From: Planctomycetota bacterium
GTDB taxonomy: Bacteria > Planctomycetota > Phycisphaerae > Phycisphaerales > SM1A02
NCBI GenBank assembly: GCA_022563315.1
Contig: JADFNO010000004.1
Coordinates: forward strand, 1 to 54,242
DNA length: 54,242 nucleotides
Direction of reading: 5' to 3'
In this document: positions 16,190-54,242 of the stretch, in pieces
Layout: each line of letters begins with the position of its first letter
Numbering within the stretch: the first letter of the stretch is position 1
Notes under the pieces: model-generated
Databases searched by the model: none
What the model was told of the DNA's origin: nothing
The model's input: the letters and a program-made list of their open reading frames with translations, nothing else
Program-made: the position numbers and the translations under genes

Positions 16190-16195
16190 AGTGTA
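16190..16195 (-). promoter_or_regulatory. -10-like element immediately before tpiA
   Basis: TACACT on the minus strand, seven bases before the tpiA ATG at 16182. The adjoining REP hairpin begins at 16196, so the box abuts the RAYT module. No Shine-Dalgarno is present. Confidence 0.5.
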
Positions 16196-16234
16196 CCGAA
16201 GAACAGCGGGTCAAGCCCGCCGGCTAAACCAGCT
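16196..16234 (+). repeat. REP-like hairpin, left direct copy
   Basis: This is one of a direct repeat pair (the other is 16941-16980) that differ by one extra A. It contains a hairpin with stem GCGGG/CCCGC and loop TCAAG, followed by the head GGCTAAACC (GTTTAGCC on the other strand). It flanks the RAYT gene. Confidence 0.8.
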
Positions 16235-16240
16235 TCCTGC

Positions 16241-16273
16241 CGTTTCGCCGCAGGGCTTGACCCTGCTTTCTTC
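16241..16273 (+). repeat. REP-like hairpin, left inverted copy
   Basis: Head GTTTCGCCG then a hairpin with stem GCAGGG/CCCTGC and loop CTTGA. It is the inverted partner of 16196-16234, so the two together form a REPIN-like doublet upstream of the RAYT gene. Confidence 0.75.
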
Positions 16274-16284
16274 TCTTCACCCAC

Positions 16285-16290
16285 TACAAT
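16285..16290 (+). promoter_or_regulatory. -10-like element before the RAYT gene
   Basis: TACAAT, eight bases before the ATG at 16299, just outside the left REP doublet. No Shine-Dalgarno is present. Confidence 0.45.
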
Positions 16291-16298
16291 TCACCCTC

Positions 16299-16895
16299 AT
16301 GGTCCGCACCTACCACGTCATCTTCTCAACCTACGGCTTCTGGCTCCCCAACGACCCGCGCGGCTCCGGTTCCGACTGTGTAGCAGCGACCCATCTGCAA
16401 CGTTTCGGCCCGGCAGTCAATGTGCAAACAAAGCAATCCGTCGCGCACCGCCCTCACGATTGCGCCGTTCGAAAGGCTGCCAAGGAACAACTCAAATACC
16501 CGCCGGTTATCTTTGATAGAGTTCAAGCACGTGCGGTAGCCAGAGGGTTCGCACAAGTACTTCAGGAATACGACTACCCCGTGTACGCCTGCACAATTCT
16601 CCCGCAACACGTGCATTTGGTGATCGGCCGGCACGCTCGCGCAATCGAACGCATCGTCGCACATCTCAAACGCGGCGCAACACTCAAGCTATTCGAGGAG
16701 GATCGTCATCCGTTGATGCACTATCGAGGTCCGCGTGGTGCGGTTCCATCTCCCTGGAGCAAGCGCACGGGATGGACCGTGTACTTGAACGACGAACAAA
16801 CCGTTCGACATCGCATTCAGTACGTCGAACAGAACCCTGTGAAGGAGGGCAAGCCGCAACAACACTGGAGCTTCGTCAAACCGTTCGCACCATAG
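16299..16895 (+). CDS. REP-associated tyrosine transposase (RAYT, IS200/Y1 family)
   Basis: A 198-residue single-domain HUH nuclease of the Y1 transposase family. The metal-binding HUH motif is 'HVH' in 'LPQHVHLVIGRH' (about residues 105-116). The catalytic tyrosine lies in 'RIQYVEQNPVKEG' (about residues 171-183), a signature of RAYTs. There is no accessory TnpB. It starts at an ATG eight bases after a TACAAT box. It sits between tpiA and alaS and is framed on each side by a doublet of REP-like hairpins (16196-16273 and 16902-16980), which are presumably its nucleic-acid substrates. The frame is intact, so the gene may be active. RAYTs are usually single-copy, vertically inherited housekeeping-like transposases. 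Confidence 0.88.
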   Translation: MVRTYHVIFSTYGFWLPNDPRGSGSDCVAATHLQRFGPAVNVQTKQSVAHRPHDCAVRKAAKEQLKYPPVIFDRVQARAVARGFAQVLQEYDYPVYACTILPQHVHLVIGRHARAIERIVAHLKRGATLKLFEEDRHPLMHYRGPRGAVPSPWSKRTGWTVYLNDEQTVRHRIQYVEQNPVKEGKPQQHWSFVKPFAP

Positions 16896-16901
16896 TTCTC
16901 C

Positions 16902-16935
16902 CCGTTTAGCCGCACGGCTTGACCGTGCTTTCTTC
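16902..16935 (+). repeat. REP-like hairpin, right inverted copy
   Basis: Head CCGTTTAGCCG then a hairpin with stem GCACGG/CCGTGC and loop CTTGA, starting seven bases after the RAYT stop. Compared with 16241-16273 the stem bases have changed on both sides so that pairing is kept. Confidence 0.78.
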
Positions 16936-16940
16936 CCGCG

Positions 16941-16980
16941 CCGAAGAAACAGCGGGTCAAGCCCGCCGGCTAAACCAGCT
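16941..16980 (+). repeat. REP-like hairpin, right direct copy
   Basis: Near-identical to 16196-16234 in the same orientation, with stem GCGGG/CCCGC, loop TCAAG and the same GGCTAAACC end. Its last base begins the TACACT box of alaS. Confidence 0.8.
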
Positions 16981-47905: not shown

Positions 47906-49102
47906 TCAGGCCTTGGTTGCGCACGCGTGTTCGCCGATGTAGGCGACGATCGTATCGGTCACGTGAGCAAGCTGTTGGTCCGTCAACTCCGGATAAATGG
48001 GCAGCGCGAGTGTTTCTCGGGCCGCCGACTCAGACTCCCCCAGGTCGCCTTGGGCGTAGCCGAGGTAGGCGAAACACTCCTGCATGTGAAGCGGCACCGG
48101 ATAGTAGATCTCCGTGCCAATGCGCTGATCCTGCAAGTGCTGGCGCAATTCGTCGCGCATGGGGCCTGGAACTCGAATGACGTATTGGTTGTAAATATGC
48201 GTGGCCTGGCCCGATGGCGGCTGGGGCGTTCGCAGCGGGAACCCGCCTGCGGTCAGGGGAACCGCTGATGTCGCAGCGCCGGCCGCAGCAAATGCGCCAT
48301 CGTACGCCTCGGCGTTTTCGCGCCGCCCTTCATGCCATGCAGCGATGTGTCGCAGCTTGACGCGCAAGATTGCGGCTTGGAGCGCATCCAATCGCGAATT
48401 CAGGCCGATTATCTTGTGATAGTACTTGGGCTTTGAGCCGTGCAAACGGAGTATGCTGAGCCGCTCGGCGAGGTCGGCGTCGTTGGTCGTGAGAATCCCT
48501 GCATCTCCGTAGGCGCCAATATTCTTAGATGGGAAGAAACTGAAGCAACCAATCACGCCGCGCGAACCGGCAAGCTTACCGTCGCTATCACGACTGCCGA
48601 TCGCTTGCGCCGCATCTTCGACGATCGGCACGCCAAGCTCCTCGCCCAACGCGAGGTACGCGCTCATATCCACCGTTTGCCCATACAGATGCACGGGCAT
48701 GATCGCTTTGAGTCGTTTGCAGCGCGACGCCGCCTGGCGAACCGATCCAAGATCGACGTTGTACGTTTCCGGGTCGATATCAGCGAAGACAGGGACCGCA
48801 CCGAGCCGGGCAATCGAGCCGGCGGTGGCGAAGAACGTATACGTCGGGCAGATGACTTCATCACGCGGGCCGATGTCAAGCGCCATCATGGCGAGCAGCA
48901 CTGCATCCGATCCCGAAGCGCAGCCGATCGCAAAACGAGCGTCGCAGTACGAAGCGATTTCCTCTTCGAGGCTGCTGACCTCCGGCCCCATGATGAACCG
49001 CTGCGTTTCGAGCACGCCTTGGATCGCCTTGTCGATCTGAGCTTTGATCGTGGCATATTGAGCGCGCAGGTCCAACAGCGGGACCGTCACTTCACTGGTC
49101 AT
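47906..49102 (-). CDS. DegT/DnrJ/EryC1-family sugar aminotransferase (WbpE-like)
   Basis: A 398-residue PLP enzyme that transaminates a keto group on a nucleotide sugar. 'VPLLDLRAQYATIKAQID' opens the protein; 'VEDAAQAIGS' (residues 161-170) contacts PLP; the Schiff-base lysine is K193 in 'FFPSKNIGAYGDAG'. 'GLNSRLDALQAAIL' follows as in WbpE and DesI-type enzymes. The ATG at 49102 has AAGGAGG upstream and overlaps the acetyltransferase gene by 11 bases. With the genes on either side it would carry out C3 transamination in a UDP-diacetamido uronate route. Confidence 0.88.
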   Translation of the reverse strand: MTSEVTVPLLDLRAQYATIKAQIDKAIQGVLETQRFIMGPEVSSLEEEIASYCDARFAIGCASGSDAVLLAMMALDIGPRDEVICPTYTFFATAGSIARLGAVPVFADIDPETYNVDLGSVRQAASRCKRLKAIMPVHLYGQTVDMSAYLALGEELGVPIVEDAAQAIGSRDSDGKLAGSRGVIGCFSFFPSKNIGAYGDAGILTTNDADLAERLSILRLHGSKPKYYHKIIGLNSRLDALQAAILRVKLRHIAAWHEGRRENAEAYDGAFAAAGAATSAVPLTAGGFPLRTPQPPSGQATHIYNQYVIRVPGPMRDELRQHLQDQRIGTEIYYPVPLHMQECFAYLGYAQGDLGESESAARETLALPIYPELTDQQLAHVTDTIVAYIGEHACATKA

Positions 49103-49712
49103 CGTCCTGCACCTCCTTGAGCGGACTGATAGTCTCATCGCGGTGCGCATATTCGTTGCCGCACGAACTGCAAACGATGCGCTCATCTTGGGTAGACGGC
49201 AGGCGGTCCCCACATCGACACACCCACCCAACTCGTTTCGCCGGAACACCGACGACAAGAGCATAGTCCGTCACGTCCTTGGCGACGACCGCACCAGCGC
49301 CGACAAAGGCAAAACGCCCGATTTGCACGGGGCAGACGAGCGTGCAGTTCGCGCCCAGGCTCGCGCCGCGCCGCACCAACGTCCGCTGATACTTTCCCCG
49401 TCGCACGATCTCGCTGCGCGGATTGATGATATTGGTAAAGACCATCGACGGACCGCAGAACACGTCGTCCTCGAGAACGACGCCGGTGTAGATCGACACG
49501 TTGTTCTGGACTTTGACATTGTCGCCGAGCACGACGCGCGGTGAGACGACCACGTTCTGCCCGATGTTGCAGTTCTTCCCCAACGTGGCATCAGCCATGA
49601 TGTGGGAGAAGTGCCAAATCTTCGTGCCCGCGCCGATCTCACATGGCTCATCGACGTAAGCCGAGTCGTGGACCTGTACGTTCGGATGCTTGGCGGAATC
49701 AAACCGAGACAT
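49092..49712 (-). CDS. Hexapeptide N-acetyltransferase (WbpD/WlbB-like)
   Basis: A 206-residue left-handed beta-helix acyltransferase. 'IGAGTKIWHFSHIMADATLG' is nearly diagnostic of WbpD, with the active-site His region, followed by 'CNIGQNVVVSPRVVLGD'. 'VFTNIINPRSEI' and 'GAGAVVAKDVTDYALVVGVP' complete the helix. A C-terminal zinc ribbon 'CRCGDRL...CSSCGNEY' is present, as in many WbpD homologues. It would N-acetylate C3 of a UDP-3-amino sugar uronate. It overlaps the oxidoreductase gene by 14 bases, so the operon order is oxidoreductase, acetyltransferase, aminotransferase. Confidence 0.88.
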   Translation of the reverse strand: MSRFDSAKHPNVQVHDSAYVDEPCEIGAGTKIWHFSHIMADATLGKNCNIGQNVVVSPRVVLGDNVKVQNNVSIYTGVVLEDDVFCGPSMVFTNIINPRSEIVRRGKYQRTLVRRGASLGANCTLVCPVQIGRFAFVGAGAVVAKDVTDYALVVGVPAKRVGWVCRCGDRLPSTQDERIVCSSCGNEYAHRDETISPLKEVQDDDQ

Positions 49713-50772
49713 GCGGCTGAGACACCGTAGTGACGGGCGTGGTGATCGGCTCGGTTTCACGATGTGCCGCGACGGCCTGCGACGCCAAAGTCAGCGTCAC
49801 CGGCTGGCCGTTTGTCATCAACGAGCGCTGCGCAGCATGAAGAATCTGCAAGACGCGCAAGCCGTTCTCACCATCCGTCCTCGGGCCCTGCCGTGTCTGG
49901 ATGCAGTGAAGGAAGTGCTTCACCTCTTGTTTGAGCGGCTCATCGTCGGGGTATTCGACCTCGACGCCCTCGCCCCGCACCGGTACGGGCTGGCCTTGTT
50001 CCCAATCCACACGCTGATCGTACAGCACCAGTTTCTTGGCCACGTCATCGAAGCTGGCCATCTTCTTTGAACCGATCACGACCAGCCGCTGCTCTTTGAA
50101 CGGATGCAGCCATGACACAAAGATATGCGATCGAACGCCGTTGTCGAACAGCAACTGGGTCACGGTCACGTCGGCGATGTTCGCCTGCACATACGACCCG
50201 CCGGTGGCCACGACCTGGAACGGCATCGCCCCGACGAGCCGGAGGATCACGGAAATATCGTGCGGTGCGAACGACCACAGCGCGTTTTCCTCCGTCCGAA
50301 TTTTGCCCAGATTCAACCGGTTGGAAGTCACGTAGCGGATCTTGCCCAGCTCGTTGGCCTCAATGAGTTGCTGGAGTTTGACGATCGCGGGGTGGTATTC
50401 CAGAAGGTGCCCGACCATGAGGATTCGGCCGGCGGCATCGGCGCGGGTGACGAGGTCCCGTGCCTCATCCACATCAATGGTGAGCGGCTTCTCGACAAAA
50501 ACGTCCTTGCCTGCGTCGATCGCTTTGAGCGCGAGGGCGTAGTGCGTCTCGGCCGGCGTCGCGATCATGACACCAATGACCGCGGAGTCCGCAAGGACCG
50601 GCTCGATGGAGTCGTAGACGTTCACATCCGGTGCGATTTGGGCGGCTTTGGTTCGCCCGGTCGGGGTTGGGTCAACTACAGCTCGCAGGCTGCCGAGCGC
50701 ATTGGCGGTGCGGACGATATTTGCCCCCCAGGCCCCGCATCCAAGCACCGCGATTTGCGCATCTGATGCCAC
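49699..50772 (-). CDS. Gfo/Idh/MocA-family oxidoreductase (WbpB/WlbA-like)
   Basis: A 357-residue NAD(P)-dependent sugar oxidoreductase. 'IAVLGCGAWGANIVRTANAL' is the Rossmann motif and 'VFVEKPL' (EKP) the family catalytic motif; 'IRYVTSNRLNLGKI' and 'HDISVILRLVGAMP' match the WbpB group. It would oxidise C3 of a UDP-HexNAc uronate before transamination. The start is a GTG at 50772, chosen because GGAG lies seven bases upstream; a TTG at 50796 lacks one. It heads the leftward glycan operon and is divergent from a methyltransferase. Confidence 0.87.
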   Translation of the reverse strand: MASDAQIAVLGCGAWGANIVRTANALGSLRAVVDPTPTGRTKAAQIAPDVNVYDSIEPVLADSAVIGVMIATPAETHYALALKAIDAGKDVFVEKPLTIDVDEARDLVTRADAAGRILMVGHLLEYHPAIVKLQQLIEANELGKIRYVTSNRLNLGKIRTEENALWSFAPHDISVILRLVGAMPFQVVATGGSYVQANIADVTVTQLLFDNGVRSHIFVSWLHPFKEQRLVVIGSKKMASFDDVAKKLVLYDQRVDWEQGQPVPVRGEGVEVEYPDDEPLKQEVKHFLHCIQTRQGPRTDGENGLRVLQILHAAQRSLMTNGQPVTLTLASQAVAAHRETEPITTPVTTVSQPHVSV

Positions 50773-50932
50773 GCGATCGCTCCGTTCAATCGTCAAAAGA
50801 AGGCTTCAACGCCCCAAAAGGGCGTCTACGGCCGGACGATCCAGCCCTGTTCGCACGTTGGCCCAGACGCTAGCAGTCGCCGACCGGCCGGTCAACTATC
50901 TGCCCATCACAATGCCGATCGCCGAAGCACAC

Positions 50933-50994: not shown

Positions 50995-51702
50995 ATGACC
51001 AACGAGATTTACCAATCCGCTCAGGAAGCCCGCCAGGCCACCGATGCCTTCTACGCCGATCACGGCTTCGAGTACACGCCCGACCAAGTTCAGCAGTGGC
51101 TGAAAATCTATCTGCCGCAATTGCCTAAATCCGGGTGCGTGCTCGATCTGTGTTGCGGCGACGGCATTTGGGCCGCCGGCCTCAAAACGCTCAGTCCTGA
51201 CTTGAGTCTTTACGGGATCGATATTTCCGCCGGGGCGATCGACAAAGCGAAAGAATTGGCGCCGCAAGATGCAGCGCAATTCGTCGTCGGCGATGCGGAG
51301 GACTCACTGCCGTGGCCGGACGGAACCTTCGATCTGATCTTCGCGCGTGGGGCGGGGCTGTACAACCAACACTCCATGGACCGACCCGCCGCCATCGCCG
51401 TCATCGAAATGTGGCACCGGGCATTGAGACCTTCGGGGCGCTTCGTCTCGATCTTCTACTCGAACCCTGAGCTGTTCGGCAGCTACACGAACCCCTTGAA
51501 AGTGCGTTTGCCGTATAACCGCGCGCCGCGCCTGACTGACGCTGTCGATTTCACCGGCGGGAAGTACCACCACGATATCACCAGCTTTTTGTTGCCGTTT
51601 CGTAAAGCTAGTAATGTAAAGCTCGGCGAATACCGTTTCGTTCGAAACACACATATTCTCGACACGCGTTTGGTATCAGCCTCGAACGACCAAGAACTGT
51701 AA
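50995..51702 (+). CDS. Class I SAM-dependent methyltransferase
   Basis: A 235-residue methyltransferase. SAM motif I is 'VLDLCCGDGIWA' (residues 49-60), motif II 'LYGIDISAGAI', and motif IV 'FDLIFARGAGLYNQ', with 'MWHRALRPSGRFVSIFYS' as the post-I strand region. The rest lacks a known substrate domain. The following gene begins one base after its stop, so they are co-transcribed. Given the neighbouring SGNH hydrolase and glycan genes, O-methylation of a sugar or lipid-linked glycan is a plausible role, inferred only from context. Confidence 0.82.
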   Translation: MTNEIYQSAQEARQATDAFYADHGFEYTPDQVQQWLKIYLPQLPKSGCVLDLCCGDGIWAAGLKTLSPDLSLYGIDISAGAIDKAKELAPQDAAQFVVGDAEDSLPWPDGTFDLIFARGAGLYNQHSMDRPAAIAVIEMWHRALRPSGRFVSIFYSNPELFGSYTNPLKVRLPYNRAPRLTDAVDFTGGKYHHDITSFLLPFRKASNVKLGEYRFVRNTHILDTRLVSASNDQEL

Positions 51703-51703
51703 G

Positions 51704-53167
51704 ATGATCGTCTACGAGAACCCCAATCATCAATTTGACGCTTCGGGTTATAACGAAACGTATACCGCTGATCGACAGCACTTCACACATCGCCAGACGT
51801 TTGAAGCGTTGGACGCGCTTTTCGCAGAGCACATTCGCCTCGACAGTCCGTTTTGGTGTTTGGACTTGGGCTGTGGACAAGGTCAGGTGGCGGCGAAAGT
51901 ACGTGATATCGTTGCCCAGCGCGCCCCGGAGATGCTCGCTGACTCACGAATCTACGGTCTGGACCTCAGTCCTGTCGCCATCCGCCAATGTGATGTGTCG
52001 TACCCTGATCTGCTGTGGATCAACGACACCCTGCAGGATTTTCTCACGCGCCAGGACACGCGCTGCGACCTTTTCGGCCGCTTCGATCTGGTTATCAACA
52101 AAGGCGGTTTGACCTTCGTCGATTCCGAGGATGAGTACGACCAGTTGCTGACCGGCATACACGCGCTGCTGCGCGACGGCGGGCGATACTTGTACATCCA
52201 GAACAAGAACTTCTACGCCAAGTGGAGTAACCAGACCTGCCGGGGCTGGAGTCGCGATGTCTTTGACATCGCCGGCGAACGGATCAGTGCGCCGAGGATC
52301 ATCGAGCACAGCGGCTACTTCATCCACGTCTACACCAGACAGCCCGAATCCGCAGGCGGCGCCTATCGGCCGGCGGCGGATGAACCACTGATGATCGAGT
52401 TCACGCTGAATACGGGGCAGGGCGAGGACTGGTTCGTCGGCGGGGATGAGATCATTGCCGGGCGAACGAAGTTCCTGTGCGGACCGCCGGATCGGTCCCG
52501 TTCGTTCATGTTTCAGGTTCCGCCCAAGGGTAGTCCCCAGACTCGCGCGCGACATGCTGAACTGGTTGCGGCAACGTCGGCGGCGCGCCGCGCGGGCGAG
52601 CCGGTGTTGGTCGTTCCAACACATCGCATCCTGCGCCCCGACGGCGGGCGCGGCGTCCTGACGCCGAAGCTGTACGACGAAATTTCCGGACAGGGCGTCA
52701 GCCCATTGCACTATCCGGCGGATTGCCTGACCACGCGCGAGTATTGCAACGTGGTCAACGAGTGGATCGCCGCGCGCCCGGATGCCATTCTGCTCGGTCT
52801 GGGGCTCGAGGATTATCGCCGTGACGCCGAAACCGCAACCCAGTTGATCGATCTCGATGAGTTCACCGTGCGCGTTGACTGGCTGACGTGGAAGCTTCAG
52901 CGCGAAACGCACGCGCGCCTCATCTGGCTGTGGCTCGAATTGGACCGGGACATCACCTCCTCCGACGGGCGGCGCGTGTACCGGCATGAGGATGCCCGCG
53001 CATTTCAGCAGGCGGTCGAGCCCCTCCTCCGCATGCGCGGGGTCCAGGTTGAGCAGATTGCCCACGGCAGTCTGATCTCCGGAGACCACCTCGATCTTCC
53101 TCGAACCGTCCAGCGCATTGGCGGGATGATCTGCAACGCGCTGAAGCAGGAGAGCGTCGCGCGATGA
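51704..53167 (+). CDS. Methyltransferase fused to a degenerate SGNH-like domain
   Basis: A 487-residue two-domain protein. Residues 1-215 are a class I methyltransferase: motif I 'CLDLGCGQGQVA' at 52-63, motif II 'IYGLDLSPVAIRQC', motif IV 'FDLVINKGG'. Residues 295-487 can be laid alongside the SGNH hydrolase encoded next: 'VLVVPTHRIL' (301-310) sits where the nucleophile block should be but has no GDS; 'ILLGLGLEDYR' (362-372) matches block III; 'SGDHLDLPRTVQRIGG' (459-474) matches block V with the catalytic Asp replaced by Ser. So the second domain probably binds rather than hydrolyses. It overlaps the SGNH gene by ATGA. Function unknown. Confidence 0.78.
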   Translation: MIVYENPNHQFDASGYNETYTADRQHFTHRQTFEALDALFAEHIRLDSPFWCLDLGCGQGQVAAKVRDIVAQRAPEMLADSRIYGLDLSPVAIRQCDVSYPDLLWINDTLQDFLTRQDTRCDLFGRFDLVINKGGLTFVDSEDEYDQLLTGIHALLRDGGRYLYIQNKNFYAKWSNQTCRGWSRDVFDIAGERISAPRIIEHSGYFIHVYTRQPESAGGAYRPAADEPLMIEFTLNTGQGEDWFVGGDEIIAGRTKFLCGPPDRSRSFMFQVPPKGSPQTRARHAELVAATSAARRAGEPVLVVPTHRILRPDGGRGVLTPKLYDEISGQGVSPLHYPADCLTTREYCNVVNEWIAARPDAILLGLGLEDYRRDAETATQLIDLDEFTVRVDWLTWKLQRETHARLIWLWLELDRDITSSDGRRVYRHEDARAFQQAVEPLLRMRGVQVEQIAHGSLISGDHLDLPRTVQRIGGMICNALKQESVAR

Positions 53168-53967
53168 GCTATATCGCGGCTGAGTCAGCGACCATTCGCC
53201 GAAAGGACGGCTCGACAGTTCAGTTGACTGGGCCGCACGCCCAGCAGCTTTATCTACACCGCAACACACAGGATCTGTCGGTCAAATGGCTGCGACTGCT
53301 TGGCGGCCGGAATGAGTTTGAACGATCTCGCCAGCAGCAGATTGTGGATCGCCTTGCGGATGCCGAGCGTTCCGGCCGGAAGCGCGTGCTCCTGATCGGT
53401 GATTCGATCCGTATGAGGCTCCGCGACACGACGGGGTATGGGTTGCACACCTACAAATACCTTCTGGATCACGTTAATCTCACCCACATTCCCCACAATA
53501 CAGGCGGCACGACGCCAGTTCTGCAGTACCTCAATGACTGGCTTTCATGTCGGCCTGAGATCGTTCACATCAACGCGGGGCTCCACGACCTGGCGACTGC
53601 AGCGCCCGACACGCAGCCGCATCGGTGTTACAACACGCCCGAGACGTATGCGTCGAACCTGCGCCGGATTGTGAAGTTGCTCAGGAACGCCGGCGTGCCG
53701 CACGTGATCTGGGGGCTCAGCACGCCCGTGCACGACCAGTGGCACACGACCAGCTGGCTACACCGCCTCAACAAAGACGTCACCCTGTATAACCAGATCG
53801 CCACGCAGGTCATGGCTGAGCTGGACGTCCCGATCAACGACCTGTTCCAGCCGATGCTTGATGCCGGCCTGGAGACGTGTCTCATGCGAGACGGGGTGCA
53901 TCTGACACATACCGGCAGCACCCTGCTGGGTAGAATTGTCGCGGACCGGATTCTAACGGTGTGCTGA
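53164..53967 (+). CDS. SGNH/GDSL-family hydrolase or acyltransferase
   Basis: A 267-residue protein. Block I is 'VLLIGDSIRMRL' (GDS at 79-81, with the nucleophile Ser), block III 'INAGLHDL' (about 136-143; the usual Asn of the oxyanion hole is replaced), and block V 'RDGVHLTHTG' (D243, H246). There is no signal peptide, so it appears cytoplasmic. Members deacetylate or transfer acyl groups on carbohydrates. Its start overlaps the fused methyltransferase by four bases, which ties it to the same job, probably modification of a sugar or glycan. Confidence 0.82.
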   Translation: MSYIAAESATIRRKDGSTVQLTGPHAQQLYLHRNTQDLSVKWLRLLGGRNEFERSRQQQIVDRLADAERSGRKRVLLIGDSIRMRLRDTTGYGLHTYKYLLDHVNLTHIPHNTGGTTPVLQYLNDWLSCRPEIVHINAGLHDLATAAPDTQPHRCYNTPETYASNLRRIVKLLRNAGVPHVIWGLSTPVHDQWHTTSWLHRLNKDVTLYNQIATQVMAELDVPINDLFQPMLDAGLETCLMRDGVHLTHTGSTLLGRIVADRILTVC

Positions 53968-53991
53968 TTCGTTTTGGAACAGCTCGTAGCT

Positions 53992-54056
53992 CGTAGCAGG
54001 CTTTGAGCCTGCCGTTACTTTAGGAACTTACACCCCCAGGCCAAAGGCCTGCTACC
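53992..54056 (+). repeat. REPIN-like pair with GTAG heads
   Basis: Two inverted hairpin units. The left is GTAG then CAGGCTTTGAGCCTGCC; the right, read on the other strand, is GTAG then CAGGCCTTTGGCCTGGG. Each folds on itself and the two can also pair with each other. It lies in the 100-base gap before the last gene. Confidence 0.7.
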
Positions 54057-54067
54057 AACTCACCGCC

Positions 54068-54242
54068 ATGTACTCGTACAACCCCGATCGACGCGGACTC
54101 AGTGAAGTCAAGCTTCTGAAGCTCGAGCCGTGGCGGTTGTATCCCAAGGGTGATGCGCTCAACGTCGAGTTTTTGAAGCAGCATCGCCCCGACAAGCCGC
54201 GCCTGACCCAAGACACGCCCATCGCTTCGATTGGAAGTTGTT
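54068..54242 (+). CDS. Probable GSCFA-family protein, N-terminal part only
   Basis: Runs off the right edge; about 58 residues are visible, beginning MYSYNPDRRGLSEVKLLKLE and ending '...PIASIGSC'. A Gly-Ser-Cys after a hydrophobic strand is how GSCFA-domain proteins (SGNH-related, often in glycan clusters) present their nucleophile motif, but the final Phe-Ala is just outside the window. The ATG at 54068 has no clear Shine-Dalgarno. It follows the SGNH hydrolase gene by 100 bases containing a REPIN-like pair. Confidence 0.5.
   Translation, partial: MYSYNPDRRGLSEVKLLKLEPWRLYPKGDALNVEFLKQHRPDKPRLTQDTPIASIGSC

Follow-up and report, generated by a model that had tools for sequence, protein, structure and literature searches.

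The central finding of this analysis is a 487-residue planctomycete protein that joins an intact-looking class I SAM methyltransferase to a C-terminal domain with a predicted SGNH fold and without the catalytic residues of that superfamily, encoded by a gene whose end overlaps the start of a separate SGNH gene. The window analysed here, 54,242 nucleotides in length, is the whole of contig C141 of a planctomycete MAG. Near its right end, on the plus strand, the gene for a 235-residue class I SAM methyltransferase recognized by Pfam (hereafter MT1; 50995..51702) is followed after 1 nt by the fusion gene (51704..53167), assigned from Pfam, sequence profiles and structural models. The fusion stop overlaps by 4 nt the start codon of a gene for a 267-residue SGNH/GDSL hydrolase family protein (53164..53967; Pfam PF13472, E 4e-12), and the series ends with the 5' part of a GSCFA-family gene, assigned from its orthologues, of which 58 residues (54068..54242) precede the contig edge. 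Each of these parts belongs to a known family. What appears to be new is the combination of domains, a pseudoenzyme domain attached to a methyltransferase in a putative glycan-decoration cassette.

The setting of these genes supports the view that this is a surface-glycan locus, with MT1 and the GSCFA gene as probable members of it. Divergent from MT1, on the minus strand, lie genes for a Gfo/Idh/MocA oxidoreductase resembling WlbA and UDP-GlcNAc 3-dehydrogenases (49699..50796), a WlbB-like hexapeptide-repeat acyltransferase (49092..49760) and a WlbE-like DegT/DnrJ/EryC1 aminotransferase (47906..49264); to their left are two glycosyltransferases and, farther left, a nucleotide-sugar dehydrogenase. 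The Wlb-type trio of dehydrogenase, aminotransferase and acyltransferase occurs together in the window; its exact sugar is unproven, since all NCBIfam scores fall under the equivalog cut-offs. Besides its diacetamido-uronate-type genes and glycosyltransferases, the locus includes sulfotransferases. A pair of genes of the enoyl-CoA hydratase family (PF00378; 42835-43584 and 44516-45274) adjoins the glycosyltransferases of the window locus. The first-pass annotation had described the rightmost genes in this arrangement, and had named diacetamido-uronate genes running divergently from them; a check of the open reading frames places the former where they were said to be, and Pfam identifies the latter as the Gfo/Idh, hexapeptide acyltransferase and DegT genes.

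Both parts of the fusion can be delimited. Residues ~1-215 form the methyltransferase, with the motif LDLGCGQGQV; residues ~223-295 form a linker; and residues ~296-487 form the domain of SGNH fold. The N-terminus matches Pfam PF08242/PF13649, the motif I stretch DLGCGQGQV (DxGxGxG) and flanking methyltransferase residues are invariant in all three known fusions, and in a full-length model compared with the PDB, residues 15-213 resemble class I methyltransferases such as Coq5 (Z 12.5). By sequence and model, then, the methyltransferase is predicted to be intact.

The assignment of the C-terminal half required more sensitive comparisons. Pfam does not reach this half of the window protein, and PF13472 matches the corresponding domain of both orthologues under its curated cut-off (E 4.1e-5 and 3.4e-4). 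A profile built from the three dead domains alone, searched against a small set of open reading frames, recovers SGNH proteins of Acidobacteria, Kuenenia, Planctomycetales and Chloroflexi, the best matches having E 5e-12 to 4e-10. When the dead domain is aligned with a profile of the local SGNH proteins, hhalign returns a probability of 95.6% (E 1.3e-8), and pairwise core scores between the dead domain and SGNH proteins stand 6-10 sd over shuffles in the best pairs. An AlphaFold model made from the three dead domains alone, with no active SGNH in the input, has pLDDT 54 and pTM 0.55; almost all of the PDB entries that it matches are SGNH enzymes, led by 4h08 (Z 11.4, rmsd 3.7, 170 residues aligned). 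In the full-length model, made with a deeper alignment, residues 298-483 match TesA and acetylxylan esterases at Z ~14 (TesA: Z 14.2, rmsd 3.2, 163 aligned), a result that is not independent because the deeper alignment contains active SGNHs. The domain is accordingly modelled as an SGNH fold, alpha/beta/alpha with the SGNH block order. Such a methyltransferase-pseudoSGNH fusion of 487 residues was what the first-pass annotation had proposed, naming structure prediction of residues 295-487 as one way to judge it; the prediction gave an SGNH fold rather than an unrelated one, the profiles, hhalign and the AlphaFold/PDB matches agree, and Pfam, profiles and model bear out both halves.

The same comparisons show what this domain has lost. 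The block I Ser, block III Asn and block V Asp-x-x-His of catalytic SGNHs are all missing or broken in the C-terminus of the fusion. In an alignment of 23 sequences, all three fusions carry Arg (Arg308 in the window) where the nucleophile Ser would be, and the block III Asn position holds Glu, Glu and Asp in the three dead domains. The window protein keeps the block III Asp370, and its block V reads Ser459-Gly-Asp-His462 (SGDH), with Ser in place of Asp and His462 retained; the missing GDS and the Asp-to-Ser change initially described for this protein therefore both hold. Block V of the other two dead domains reads DRNA and DRAA, that is, Asp-x-x-Ala, in a register read manually in a region that aligns poorly. 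Thus, the catalytic residues other than Ser have been lost differently among the three members, the Ser has given way to the same Arg in each, and this combination makes the site look repurposed. The constant Arg suggests that the pocket has taken on a new role instead of decaying at random. Among the three fusions, about 30 positions in the dead domain are invariant. Identity among the three genomes is 27-37% for the dead domain, 47-55% for the methyltransferase domain and 50-63% for the separate SGNH.

The separate SGNH protein is likely active, judging from the residues it keeps. Ser81, Asp243 and His246 are invariant in the three orthologues, giving a GDS nucleophile and a block V DxxH. 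Its block III is GLHD instead of GxND, so that the oxyanion-hole Asn is replaced by a His (His141) found in the whole subfamily and in distant relatives, and the block II Gly is not conserved (Gly114 in the window, Glu in the orthologues). SASA and PatB1 are SGNH families that also lack the block III Asn (PMC9487903), and because they work without it activity is likely here as well; because the Asn is a His, activity is not certain. The first-pass description of an active SGNH therefore stands for Ser, Asp and His and has to be qualified at the oxyanion hole. Measured against the SGNH/GDSL superfamily (PF13472 Lipase_GDSL_2, CL0264), the dead domain and the separate SGNH share the fold, the block order and the beta-alpha topology; the dead domain departs from it by Arg for Ser, Glu/Asp at the block III Asn and a disrupted block V pair; in the separate SGNH the departure is the block III His, with Ser, Asp and His in place. 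An insert of 6 residues after block I is common to these two proteins only in the alignment, and hints that the dead domain may be a duplicate of the local SGNH gene; branches in the tree are very long, at 5.5 and 1.9 changes per column, and the match of the N-terminal extension did not rise above shuffles. In other genomes of the family, SGNH domains of the GLHD subfamily form the C-terminus of long proteins that are sulfatase-like by eye (L009-L015, L019). Outside the family, relatives of this subfamily are fused to a dienelactone-hydrolase-like domain or to CBM9.

The fusion is rare, and where it occurs it is accompanied by the SGNH gene. Among 181 genomes of the family, three carry it, in three genera; the other two carriers are the Phycisphaerales MAGs OFTM33 (L004/L021) and SS_bin_71 (L005/L022). 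Fusion and SGNH genes overlap in each, by 4 nt in the window and by 13 nt in both OFTM33 and SS_bin_71, so the co-occurrence on which the initial proposal depended was found in all three genomes. In genome G023 the gene that comes after the SGNH gene overlaps it as well, by 4 nt. A single-sequence search of 392 genomes of the phylum found only the window itself, a profile search of 397 genomes of the class found the fusion twice and none beyond the genomes already named, and 72,556 plasmid records contained none. Scans of about 85,000 GTDB species used short peptide patterns, which can miss diverged copies: the pattern from the fusion sequence found none, missing OFTM33 and SS_bin_71, and the pattern from the SGNH alignment found close relatives only in those two.

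Comparison of these genomes also shows how the pair is embedded. OFTM33 and SS_bin_71 also carry the fusion-SGNH pair in glycan loci, where MT1 and GSCFA genes lie nearby, with the pair on the opposite strand relative to both; because the pair is inverted there, the order of the four genes seen in the window is not fixed. In both genomes the pair is followed by a gene for a protein of 790 or 758 residues (L004 7576-9948; L005 5510-7786) with a stretch that is polysaccharide-deacetylase-like by eye and a methyltransferase-like C-terminus; the two copies are 52% identical and fall below every Pfam and NCBIfam cut-off. In the closely related sister genome G001 (L047), the DNA of the uronate genes and of the greater part of MT1 is mostly 91-99% identical to the window. 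Similarity ends sharply inside the last 100-150 nt of MT1 (window 51560-51702), with 73% identity over its final 100 nt and none beyond. In G001, sulfotransferase and glycosyltransferase genes replace the fusion-SGNH pair, and MT1 and the diacetamido-uronate genes remain. This boundary has the form expected when surface-polysaccharide loci exchange cassettes. The four genes had been proposed as one unit, and this survives in part: MT1 and GSCFA accompany the pair in 3 of 3 genomes, but the order is inverted in two and the pair is absent from the sister genome.

The GSCFA neighbour had been called GSCFA-like, and can now be placed in the family with confidence. Full-length orthologues (L004/L005) match PF08885 at 160 and 161 bits (cut-off 25; E 1e-46), and the 58 residues in the window are ~83% identical to one of them; the remainder of the gene was not recovered from any other part of the assembly. 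GSCFA (PF08885) belongs to the SGNH clan and its function is not known, so this neighbour, a clear member, gives no mechanism (PMC9487903). Two other genomes carry disrupted relatives. In G014 (L050 9369-11263) an MT1 relative is missing model positions 90-205, and in the GSCFA gene positions 44-155 are swapped for DNA with an unrelated methyltransferase reading frame, reflecting either rearrangement or assembly error. In G002 (L048 558-1194), a 66%-complete MAG, the N-terminal part of GSCFA runs into the C-terminal part of MT1 on the same strand in overlapping frames, probably through a deletion or a chimeric contig.

Overall, we propose that the fusion and its partner form a rare, exchangeable cassette that modifies a surface glycan and in which the dead domain serves for docking or for holding the sugar, a reading to which we give about an even chance. 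Neither a signal peptide nor a membrane segment was detected by hydropathy in MT1, the fusion or the SGNH protein, which makes work in the cytosol probable. The general pathway might then run as follows. The fusion and the SGNH would share one cytosolic substrate, a sugar linked to a nucleotide or a lipid. The methyltransferase domain would methylate a hydroxyl or a carboxyl, perhaps on the diacetamido-uronate for which genes lie nearby, and the SGNH partner would take an acyl group off the same glycan or transfer one. The dead domain might be the pseudoenzyme half of a pair with the active SGNH, or it might grip the sugar for the fused methyltransferase, its former active-site pocket, with the invariant Arg in place of Ser, holding an anionic sugar. 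The substrate is guessed from neighbouring genes. The most specific version, a heteromer of dead and catalytic SGNH in which the Arg site holds an anionic sugar and methylation and (de)acylation are coupled on one glycan, is in our judgement rather unlikely; gene overlap in 3 of 3 genomes favours a link between fusion and SGNH and does not prove a complex. Against the cassette reading more generally, there are three members only, their coupling could reflect shared inheritance of one cassette, and the faster divergence of the dead domain also fits relaxed constraint.

Precedents exist for separate elements of this proposal. Haloferax AglP is a cytosolic SAM methyltransferase acting on a surface-glycan uronate (PMC2952790), and the window protein resembles it, by description, as a class I SAM methyltransferase, predicted to be cytosolic, in a surface-glycan locus beside uronate genes; unlike AglP, it is fused to a dead SGNH domain. 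The T. brucei AdoMetDC prozyme is a dead paralogue acting in a heteromer (PMC6221367), and here too a dead relative is encoded along with one that keeps its catalytic residues, although the window's dead copy is fused to another enzyme. The OSK domain, of the SGNH clan, has an SGNH fold without hydrolase activity and binds RNA in the animal germline (PMC9487903), which makes it a fellow non-hydrolase SGNH fold in an unrelated setting. A search of open-access papers found none on an SGNH-methyltransferase fusion or on SGNH pseudoenzymes of this kind. Dead SGNH domains have, to our knowledge, rarely been described.

Among the alternatives, the one that survives best has no dead-active interaction at all: the dead domain would be an independent module that directs the methyltransferase by binding a carbohydrate or an acyl carrier, and the SGNH would just carry out the pathway step that follows. 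Overlapping genes are frequent in glycan operons and are no proof of a complex, the pocket side keeps the block III Asp and gains the invariant Arg, and the subfamily is elsewhere fused to carbohydrate-processing or carbohydrate-binding domains (sulfatase, CBM9), all of which would suit such a module; the SGNH gene directly overlapping in 3 of 3 genomes weakly favours a closer link, and we regard this explanation as possible though somewhat unlikely. Alternatively, the dead domain may be the leftover of a bifunctional methyltransferase-esterase whose activity moved to the separate SGNH, leaving a tolerated appendage. Its identity below that of the methyltransferase domain and the SGNH is consistent with this, as is the loss of block V residues that vary from member to member; nonetheless, an open frame and a predictable fold persist in three genera at about 27-37% identity, Ser has become the same Arg in every member and some 30 positions are invariant, and we consider this history unlikely. 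That the C-terminal domain is an unrelated alpha/beta fold merely resembling SGNH would accord with the low confidence of the three-sequence model and is otherwise effectively refuted, as highly improbable, by independent sequence profiles and by top structure matches that are nearly all SGNH.

If the sugar-holding heteromer is real, a pseudo-esterase would serve as the substrate-holding subunit of a methyltransferase. A dead SGNH fused to a methyltransferase and encoded in overlap with a catalytic relative would give insight into the construction and coupling of enzymes that decorate glycans, and the locus offers a place where the function of GSCFA could be tested.

Repeats were noted at two places in the window. 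Between the SGNH and GSCFA genes lies an inverted repeat (53993-54055) with arms GTAGCAGGC...GCCTGCTAC and a predicted hairpin at z -2.3; it was considered as a member of the REP family and rejected as such, being single-copy in its genome, and no further copies were found in four genomes. At 16191-16980 a 234-residue open reading frame, transposase-like by eye and with no Pfam match, lies between paired REP-like repeats of 33-34 nt, both direct and inverted, whose 26-nt core is also present in G014.
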